Shown in pieces: positions 58,928 through 62,162 of a DNA stretch of 64,000 bases (the first letter of the stretch is position 1; each line of letters opens with the position of its first letter). The position numbers and the translations under genes were made by a program. Source of the DNA: Cliona cf. orientalis (lineage: Eukaryota; Porifera; Demospongiae; Clionaida; Clionaidae); NCBI GenBank assembly GCA_963930775.1, contig OZ005692.1:6372135-6436134 (forward strand). The letters are read 5' to 3'. The notes beneath the pieces were generated by a model that was given only the letters and a program-made list of their open reading frames with translations, was not told the origin of the DNA and searched no databases.

Positions 58928-58965
58928 GGGGGGGGGGGGGGGGGGGGGGGGATATCCCATACACC

Positions 58966-58998
<33 letters not shown>
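58928..58998 (+). repeat. G24 run facing C31 run
   Basis: 24 G, then 16 bases (GATATCCCATACACCA-like), then a 31-C run. The two can pair as a hairpin or form G-quadruplex and i-motif. Run lengths are likely unreliable in assembly. Confidence 0.85.
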
Positions 58999-58999
<1 letters not shown>

Positions 59000-59363
59000 T
59001 ATGAAACCCTGTATTGTATCTCACTAGAATACTTTCACACAGCAAACCATAATAATTATTATAATGGATGCATACATAAATTGAAGGGCTCAGAACCATA
59101 GTGGGCTAACCCACAATTTTTGCGAATACGATTTTTTGCGATTATTCAGTAGCCTGTGTGAAGTACTAGTAGTCTGCAAAGTATAACGCGGAAATATTAA
59201 AAACTTGTGCTGTTATGCACTGTTTTACATATGCCGTAAGTTTGCGAGGTCATTCTTGTCAGTGCCATAGTGGGCTAACCCCGTTTTGACCAATCAGCAC
59301 GCGCCATTTTATGACGTCATCAATAGTCCATGCTCGGTGCTAAAACTGTCTTCTTTTCTTACC

Positions 59364-61856
59364 ATGGCGGCGTTTCGACGAATCCAGGCTGCGAGAATTA
59401 ACACAGAGACAGCATTGGCAATGCTAGACTCCAGTTTTGACGGCAGCGAATCTGAGGACGCCCCGGATGGAGATGCCTTCACGAGCCCAGAGGCCACCAC
59501 CGATCAGGGCGATAAAGAATCGGAGATCGAAGAGCAGCAGAGGACTGGTAGTAGCAGCGATGGGTACACGGCTGGTGCGGAAGTCAGCGATGGTAGCTTT
59601 GGGCCTGTTGGAGTTGGATCTCCCAGTAGGAGCGCCGAATCTTCGGCAAGTGGGAGTGTGCCGAGTGAGACTCCCAGTAGAGAAGAACAAGGCCACGATA
59701 TGGTAGGAGGTCAGGCTATAGACCATGGAGACGAGGGAGATAGTGAAGACGACGAGGAACCCAGTGATGAAACTGAGACAGAAGATGGGGAAACTCCTAA
59801 AAGCCGTAAGAGAGTTAGACGGGCTCATCGATGGAAGAAGAGTAAGCGAATCAAGCGGAGAAACAGCGGTAAGAGCTACACATCAGCTCCAGGCAAGCCG
59901 GTGAGTGCTCTTAAACGTTTTCTGTTCTATACTTTTACTGGTTTGTTGGTGTGTAGGTCTCTGCCCGACACTTTAATGATACACCCTGTGGCTGTAGTTT
60001 ACGATGTTACGAGAAGTTGTCCTTGACTGATCGGAAGAAAATCTACGATGGGTTTTGGTCAACAGCCAATTTCGATGTGCAGAATGCGTACCTATGTGGT
60101 TGCGTGAAAGTACAACCAGTTGCCAGGCGTTATTCTCCTAATGGCAATTCATCACGAAGACGCAACAGTCGTTTTTTTTACGTCAAAAAAGGAGGAGTAT
60201 CGGTGAGGGTCTGCAAGAAAGCATTCTTGAACATGCATTCAGTGGCTAATGGACGGCTGGATCGTGCTCTGAAGGCCCAGGTAGACGCCGGAGGTACGCT
60301 ACATTGTGATCAAAGGGGCAGGCATGAACCAGGCAACAAAACAAGGCCGGAGGTGATCGACGACATAAAGGCACACATCAACAGTTTTCCTAAATACAAA
60401 TCCCATTATTCACGTGAAGATAATCCTCACCGGGAGTTTCTGAGTCCAAGTCTCACGCTTCAGAAGATGTATGTGCTCTACAAAGAGAAATGTGAAGGAG
60501 AAGGAAACGTCCACGTAACTTCCGATTGGATCTACAGAAAGGTTTTCAACGAGCACTTCAATCTGTCGTTTGGAAGGTATGTTGCCATACACGTGCAATC
60601 TCTCTCCCCTCTCCTACTTCCCCTCACACACGCACACACATGCGCGCACACACACACTCATACGTACACACTCGCACGCACGCACACACACACACACTCA
60701 CACACACACGCACACACATGCATGCACATGCTCATTGACTTTGTAGTGTTATACTGTCACTAACGTGCACACACACAGCCCTAAATCTGACACCTGCAAA
60801 GTGTGCGACTCGATGAAAGTTCAGATCGATGCAGAGAGCGACGAATCTCAAAAGAGACAGCTGACTCTGGAGTTGGAGCTTCACAAAGTGCAGGCAGAAG
60901 CCTCATACCAGAAGCTTAAAGAAGATGCAGCATACTCAAAGAGTCATCCAGAGGTGGAGATGCTTACGTTTGATCTCGAAAAGTCCCTCCCTACCCCTGT
61001 ACTTACCACGGGAGTCGTGTATTATAAGAGGCAACTGTGGACATACAACCAAGGTGTTCATGACTGTCGAAGGGATAGAGGGTGTATGCACATGTGGAAT
61101 GAGAGCGTAGCATCAAGAGGGTCACACGAGGTTGGATCGTGCATCATCTCACACATCAAGGAGATGGAAACTGATGCAACACATCTCATTCTATACTCTG
61201 ATGCTTGTGGGGGCCAAAACCGGAATATTTACCTCATCTGTCTATGGCTACATATTGTTGCGAGTGACGAGTATTCGTTTACCGAAATAGATCACAAGTT
61301 CATGATCTCCGGTCACTCTTATCTCCCCAATGACAGAGATTTTGGCCACATCGAGCAAGCACGAAAGAAGACCATGCAGATCTATGTCCCTGAAGATTGG
61401 GAGAATGTGGTGAGACAGGCACGCCGTAAGAATCCGTTCGTTGTTTCAAAAATGACGAGGGAAGATTTCGTTTCGTTGAAAACCCTGAAAGGTGCTATAG
61501 TCAACCGTAAAGTGAACACCCACGGTGCTAAAGTAGAGTGGTTGAAGATTCATTGGATTGCTGTGAGCAAAGACCAGCCACTGCAATTTCGTTACCGGTA
61601 CTCGAACAACACACTCGAGTGTTGGAAGACAGTTGACCTCAAAAGAAGATCCAAAGGTCGTCCTCCAGATCTTGGAAAGATGGTGCTGCCACCTCTTTAC
61701 ACTAGGCCAAGAGTGGTAAACGAAAAGAAGGTGTCCGACTTGTTGGAACTTCTTAACTATGTCCCTCCTATTTACCATGGATTCTATCAAAACCTACAAG
61801 GAGGAAACTCTGATGATAGTGAGGAGGAACAGACACATGATTCTGAAGAAGATTGA
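59364..61856 (+). CDS. DDE-type transposase of the intact element
   Basis: Exons 59364-59900, 59957-60576 and 60779-61856 (phases 0 and 2) give 744 residues. The start is in an ideal context (ACCATGG). Residues 1-180: acidic and Ser-rich, ending in a basic stretch (SRKRVRRAHRWKKSKRIKRR) that may be a nuclear signal. Next comes a zinc-like TPCGCSLRCYEKL...CGC region, DQRGRHEPGNKT and SDWIYRKVFNEHFNL. Third exon: DTCKVCDSMK, LTFDLEKSLPTP (first D), VVYYKRQLWTYN, LILYSDACGGQNRN (second D), FMISGHSYLPNDRDFGHIEQ (probable E), and a tail with SDDSEEEQ. Proteins with the SD-x-CGGQN signature are widespread in insects and cnidarians. I assign the DDE class by motif order; the superfamily is uncertain. 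Confidence 0.88.
60626..60724 (+). repeat. (CA)n-type microsatellite in the transposase intron
   Basis: ACACACACGCACACACATGC-type repeat filling most of the second intron (60577-60778). Confidence 0.85.
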
Positions 61857-62162
61857 CTGGAAACTAGGGTTTTTGTGTACTTCCTTGGCACAGTATCCTC
61901 ATGTTCACCTTATCATTCATTGTACATCACCCTTATCAAGCTGTCAAATCTCATTATCTAATTAATTAACATTCCAGAAATTACTTAAATAGTTAAAAAA
62001 AACCAGTGACAACTTTCTGGGGGGTTAATTGAACATAAGATTAAGTTGCATGCATTTAACTTTAAACCGTTATATCTCAGTTTGTTGCTGGTGTGGGTTA
62101 GCCCACTATGGTTCCGAGCCCTTCAATTAATAAAACTATACAGTACTGAATTGTTTCCCCAG

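Follow-up and report, generated by a model that had tools for sequence, protein, structure and literature searches.

The DNA analysed here, a window of 64,000 nucleotides from Cliona cf. orientalis, contains a DNA transposon of 3044 bp at positions 59082-62125, which is very probably an autonomous cut-and-paste element whose DUF7869 transposase belongs to a superfamily-level group of DDD enzymes, distantly related to ISAzo13 and Zator and with insertion-sequence-like relatives in bacteria. Insertion with a 2-bp target duplication, multiplication in the host genome, two intact reading frames, a conserved acidic triad and short elements sharing the same ends are observed directly. A wider interpretation, toward which we lean only slightly, is that DUF7869 represents an undescribed transposase superfamily across bacteria and eukaryotes, characterized by a D-D-(43)-D core, an N-terminal cysteine and helix-turn-helix (HTH)-like region, in eukaryotes a relaxed 2-bp duplication and in bacteria insertion sequences bounded by inverted repeats, the window element being an intact, very recently moved member with a paired site at its 5' end. 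The arrangement of the element is given in Table 1.

Table 1. Features of the transposon in window coordinates, with the basis of each assignment
Feature	Position	Strand	Basis
Left target-duplication copy, AT, 2 bp	59080..59081	.	length from empty sites of a MITE and of the C6 copy
Left terminal inverted repeat (TIR), TGAAGGGCTCAGAACCATAGTGGGCTAACCCACA	59082..59115	+	sequence, copies, shuffle test
Repeat of the TIR core (CCATAGTGGGCTAACCC) in direct orientation, 169 bp inward of the outer copy; probably a second site for the transposase (putative)	59264..59281	+	
ACCAAT, conserved across three families; candidate promoter element	59289..59294	+	
TGACGTCA, conserved in part across three families; candidate promoter element	59312..59319	+	
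Exon 1, acidic then basic N terminus, no Pfam match	59364..59900	+	sequence, Pfam search
Intron 1, GT-AG	59901..59956	+	sequence
Exon 2: cysteine region 59987-60103; putative HTH-like segment 60209-60274	59957..60576	+	model, alignment
Intron 2, GT-AG, contains CA/GT simple repeat	60577..60778	+	sequence
Exon 3: CxxC 60795-60806, RNase H-like catalytic core (predicted), C-terminal domain, stop	60779..61856	+	AlphaFold2 model
Catalytic D65 codon (exon 3 numbering), end of β1	60972..60974	+	model, 31-row alignment
Catalytic D141 codon (SDACGGQN), after β4	61200..61202	+	model, 31-row alignment
D185 codon (GHSYLPNDRDF), likely third catalytic residue	61332..61334	+	model, alignments
Right TIR	62092..62125	-	sequence, copies, shuffle test
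Right target-duplication copy, AT, 2 bp	62126..62127	.	window flank

The transposase gene is composed of three exons joined by GT-AG introns, and its 745 codons including the stop run without a break, as the initial annotation had proposed, to encode a protein of 744 amino acids. The exon 2/3 junction is spanned by the alignment with L063, an intronless host relative 39% identical to the window protein. Pfam has no family matching exons 1 and 2 and the AlphaFold2 model of the whole L063 protein is weak (pLDDT 72.5, pTM 0.54), and for these reasons DNA binding by the N-terminal cysteine and HTH-like region is treated here as a putative role. The AlphaFold2 model of exon 3 is of higher confidence (pLDDT 88.7, pTM 0.86) and shows the order of strands and helices of an RNase H-like fold, which is the predicted fold of the core. 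In this model D65 ends the first core strand, D141 is placed just after the fourth and D185 starts the helix following the fifth. The conservation of these residues was assessed in an alignment of the window core with 30 sequences from the same genome, which share 15-70% identity with it, the 31 rows including the near-copies L059/L071, L069/L070 and L081/L082. D65 is an aspartate in all 27 rows with a letter at this position, D141 in 30 of 31 and D185 in every row, compared with a glutamate in 13 of 31 rows at E192, the candidate for a DDE arrangement located seven residues after D185. The best Foldseek match of the core in the PDB is IstA, the DDE transposase of IS21 (probability 0.99, E 7e-3), with nothing reaching E 0.001 in either the PDB or a viral structure library. 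Taken together, the conservation of the acids, the exon 3 model and the IstA match indicate that the triad is most likely D-D-(43)-D with D185 as the third residue, replacing the DDE core read from the sequence at the outset.

In Pfam the window frames match one family only, DUF7869 (PF25273), with an E value of 1.7e-5 and a score of 24.9-25 bits, ~1 bit under the cut-off of 26. L063 passes the same cut-off with 44 bits, and DUF7869 matches 29 of the 31 aligned core sequences at E 0.1 and gives 165 matches in the host genome. NCBIfam likewise gave nothing, and within the databases searched here the initial judgment that the protein could be placed in no named superfamily is supported. A sequence search of the PDB returned just five immunoglobulin J chains (E 0.59-0.74), and PHROGs returned one match to an HNH family at E 0.028, taken as chance. 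Three pattern scans of viral contigs matched 1, 16 and 30 stretches, none of which was confirmed, while phages searched with the relative L092 and plasmids searched with the window core gave no match. Ninety of 149 DUF7869 places, taken from the 165 matches, are located on host contig C1 between 17.5 and 37.5 Mb, ~9% of the genome, which may be a transposon-rich chromosome half. A distant DUF7869 family on contigs C10, C12 and C14 (L061, L062 and L074-L079) has an intronless frame of ~650-700 codons, ends TGAAGGCATAGAG and near-identical copies, two of them 99.9% identical over 2204 bp; the length of the L061 duplication is not fixed from four copies.

A search of a collection of papers for DUF7869, PF25273 or IPR057191 found none in it with these labels, and a search for strings of the SDACGGQN type found only papers unrelated by title. 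The lack of a labeled paper counts against the possibility that the superfamily already has a named entry in Repbase or Dfam, as does the lack of any Pfam transposase match among the 31 members beyond DUF7869 and, weakly, ISAzo13. The list of 20 DDD/E superfamilies in PMC9587614 likewise has none fitting on the features tested (the same source describes, for hAT, P, MuDR, Kolobok and Dada, a C/DxxH motif lying between the second and third acids; further literature consulted is PMC7386202, PMC8533490 and PMC10294476). However, given how numerous DUF7869 genes are, they may have been encountered during the curation of other genomes, and an existing entry is regarded as unlikely but deserving of serious consideration.

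A relationship with the ISAzo13 family is apparent at the level of the core. The ISAzo13 model PF07592 matches three of the 31 members at E 0.1, the window protein not being among them, with a best value of 1.3e-4 given by hmmscan for L090, though L090 does not appear in the genome-wide listing for this model. That listing holds one match over the cut-off, the DUF7869 gene at C1:21248860 (two candidates scored). When the core was aligned by hhalign to eight ISAzo13-type transposases, the probabilities were 87 and 92% and the scores 41.8 and 45.7; 200 column shuffles reached no higher than 20.5, and the reversed alignment scored 14.1. The eight sequences derive from nine loci in plasmid records, L105 being left out with a frame short of the core, and three of the eight are annotated as ISAzo13. 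In the hhalign alignment the ISAzo13 glutamate falls within a two-residue gap of D185. An ISAzo13 motif pattern run against viral contigs gave only chance matches. These sequence comparisons suggest that the catalytic core is distantly related to ISAzo13; Zator, which is paired with ISAzo13 in PMC10045372 and PMC5718144, was judged by its description. The window element could, by this pairing, be a divergent Zator element of the same catalytic ancestry, masked by the DUF7869 label, and both the alignment of the core with ISAzo13 transposases and the one host DUF7869 gene over the ISAzo13 cut-off are in keeping with such an origin. Against it, PMC10045372 gives 3-bp duplications for both Zator and ISAzo13 compared with the 2 bp observed here, which speaks against membership in Zator as described, and the likely third acid is an aspartate and not a glutamate in a protein with no PF07592 match at E 0.1. 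A masked Zator element is consequently considered improbable, and the preferred assignment is to a DDD superfamily shared by bacteria and eukaryotes, apparently unnamed and set apart from Zator by description.

The bacterial relatives were located by scanning genome contigs with one peptide pattern, which gave 48 matches, 11 of them loci (L128-L138) related to the host sequence L092 with 34-49% identity; the pattern ends in NKN and would miss bacterial kin with NRN, the form found in the window protein. The hosts include Desulfocicer vacuolatum DSM 3385 (L128), Thiomargarita (L131; two records) and a member of the Desulfobacterales (L132), several other loci are MAG contigs of 3-8 kb, and L138, from a sponge-symbiont record, may be host contamination. 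Seven of the 11 loci have frames of 635-668 codons with no introns. An hhalign comparison between a profile built from the window protein plus two host relatives and one built from seven bacterial proteins extends over 472 columns (probability 99.7, E 3.1e-26), running from the cysteine region through the HTH-like segment and the CxxC into the core. Two bacterial proteins searched against NCBIfam gave no match. Six of the 11 loci lie between inverted repeats whose arms match exactly over 21-43 bp, with spans of 2.06-2.70 kb; with the ends set at GGGG, AT fits both sides in four of these six, and this AT may be the repeat's own. At the Desulfocicer locus a frame for an rve integrase enters the left repeat and ends there, as expected of an insertion into an integrase gene. 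A search for a second copy of the Desulfocicer left flank, which would represent an empty site, found only itself, and the four bacterial genomes searched have one copy each. A long branch of the tree sets off the window clade (13 host rows, 100/100), and the 11 bacterial rows are placed within another host clade, needing four label changes of which at least two are forced by starred branches. This placement hints at transfer between domains, or at contamination in some of the records.

The ends of the element are clearly defined. The TIRs are 34 bp in length with one mismatch, TGAAGGGCTC(A/G)GAACCATAGTGGGCTAACCCACA, confirming the near-perfect repeats noted initially, and a 24-base end pattern searched with up to three mismatches has two matches in the window, both exact and both the element's own, compared with none in 100 shuffles. 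No further termini of the family are present in the window at that threshold. Just to the left of the element, at 58930-58998, a G run is followed ~20 bases on by a C run, possibly a hairpin or an assembly artefact.

The host genome (216.8 Mb, 149 contigs) contains four full-length copies on four contigs, in the window and on C6, C12 and C1, with 99.2-100% identity. Between the window and C6 copies there is a single 9-bp indel and no substitution over 3044 bp, and the remaining pairs are 99.2-99.4% identical. The open 744-amino acid frame is present in the window and C6 copies and broken in those of C12 and C1. Most further DNA matches of the element in the genome search arise from the CA/GT simple repeat of intron 2. 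Termini found genome-wide at up to two mismatches number 383 (176 + 207), compared with zero for a reversed-pattern control. The sequence evidence thus supports an intact transposon that has moved recently, in agreement with the first reading of it, to which the C6 copy without a substitution, the excess of termini and the empty sites of the C6 copy and a miniature element all contribute. The ~226-bp MITEs with the same ends may have been moved by the window enzyme or a close relative.

The length of the target duplication was established from the flanks of the copies and from empty sites. When the four full-length copies are cut at TGAAGGG...CCCTTCA, the flanking dinucleotides are AT (window), CA (C6), AT (C12) and AG (C1), and no matching trinucleotides are found on inspection of the flanks. 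Among 12 short elements with paired ends (loci L016-L038, with L035/L036 counted once, loci without a pair excluded, and a 1227-bp pair in L017 excluded as the ends of two elements), 2-bp flanks match in nine and fail to match in three, and 3-bp flanks match in none. The empty site of the 226-bp MITE L037 (C1:6511281) has a single AC at the joint in three aligned places, the filled site carrying two, and its joined flanks cover the joint at 96-98% identity in all 40 listed host-repeat places (40 scored of 517 candidates). The empty site of the C6 copy similarly has a single CA in two aligned places, with two in the filled site, and its joined flanks align with paralogous sites on C6, in eight cases across the whole 400-base query at 72-86% identity. 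The C6 copy has inserted into a group of paralogous units that all face the same way (C6:6.55-6.98 Mb). The empty-site check suggested at the outset therefore gave a result for the MITE and the C6 copy, but none was found in the host genome for the window copy itself. The related families L059, L060 and L063 have TGAAGGG ends with AT, TA and TT duplications, and L066 has no matching 2-bp flanks. From the four copies and the two empty sites the target duplication is 2 bp in length without fixed sequence.

The initial annotation had taken TAA as the duplication, had placed the boundaries at 59080 and 62127 and had mentioned PIF/Harbinger. TAA does flank this copy on both sides, yet the copies and empty sites give 2 bp and this TAA is a coincidence; the element is located where it was proposed, but those coordinates take in one duplicated AT at each end. 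A PIF/Harbinger element, for which a 3-bp TWA duplication is described (PMC4482050), is accordingly implausible in the extreme, with TAA beside the window copy in its favor and the 2-bp duplications and lack of a PIF-type Pfam match against it. Hardly more credible is a domesticated host gene lying between unrelated inverted repeats, which the open frame and introns would allow but which is contradicted by four near-identical copies on four contigs with their own 2-bp duplications and by the empty site of the C6 copy. ISL2EU, described in PMC4482050 with an AT duplication, a THAP transposase and a YqaJ protein, was also rejected, the duplications here being AT, CA, AG, AC and others with no THAP or YqaJ match in the frames of the element. 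Tc1/mariner was rejected on a duplication that is not fixed to TA (AT, CA, AG, AC, TT and TA being seen), and CMC (CACTA/EnSpm), for which PMC1636069 gives a Transposase_21 domain and CACTA- or CCC-type ends, on the TGAAGGG ends and the lack of Transposase_21 among the matches of the 31 members. PIF/Harbinger, ISL2EU, Tc1/mariner, CMC and Zator, the last judged by description, thus each fail a defining feature.

An additional feature of the 5' end is an inner copy of the TIR core in the same orientation as the outer one. It is present 167-174 bp from the outer copy in six of the seven families with a readable 5' end (the window element, L059, L060, L065, L066 and L067); in L063 the inner copy lies instead at the other end of the element, 204 bp in from the 3' terminus, and no 5' end was located for L068. 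Among 2000 mononucleotide shuffles of the 5' 300 bases of the window element, 0.1% yield an inner match at about the 5' spacing. Alignment of three families shows that the DNA between the outer and inner copies is poorly conserved, with the inner copy, ACCAAT and a TGACGTCA-like site being kept, suggesting that the inner copy may be a second binding site and that ACCAAT and TGACGTCA may be promoter elements.

These features are compatible with a mechanism in which the three-exon gene would produce the 744-amino acid transposase, whose N-terminal cysteine and helix-turn-helix-like region may read the TIR core and its repeat 169 bp inward at the 5' end. The RNase H-like D-D-(43)-D core would then excise the element at its ends and, by strand transfer into a target with a 2-bp stagger, would generate the 2-bp duplication at a loose, AT-leaning sequence. 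The same or a closely related enzyme could mobilize the ~226-bp MITEs through their shared ends.

The analysis suggests a transposase function for a "domain of unknown function" and adds a link between bacterial and eukaryotic transposons like that of ISL2EU/IS481EU. With its ends mapped, the window element offers an intact copy that has moved recently and is open to direct testing; the length of the duplication and the probable identity of the third catalytic residue, both of which underlie classification, are also revised.

Compared with known systems, the element resembles Tc1/mariner (the ITm group) in its 2-bp duplication, TIRs and RNase H-type transposase and differs in that no mariner-type Pfam model is among the matches of the 31 members at E 0.1. 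With the ISAzo13 family and Zator it shares, on the basis of the ISAzo13 sequences only, an alignable core in which DAGGSN corresponds to DACGGQN and GTSKWNxIEHRLF to GHSYLPNDRDF, and a spacing of 42-43 residues from D2 to the third acid compared with 43 in the window protein, the differences being the glutamate in place of the aspartate and the duplication of 3 bp (PMC10045372). The bacterial DUF7869 relatives have the same order of cysteine region, HTH-like segment, CxxC and putative RNase H-like core but belong to another clade across a long branch, with TGGGG/GGGG in place of TGAAGGG ends and with frames that lack introns. Transposon ends of the Sleeping Beauty IR/DR type carry outer and inner copies of the end motif, and the window element is similar in having two such copies approximately one nucleosome length apart, differing in that the inner copy is present at the 5' end and absent at the 3' end.
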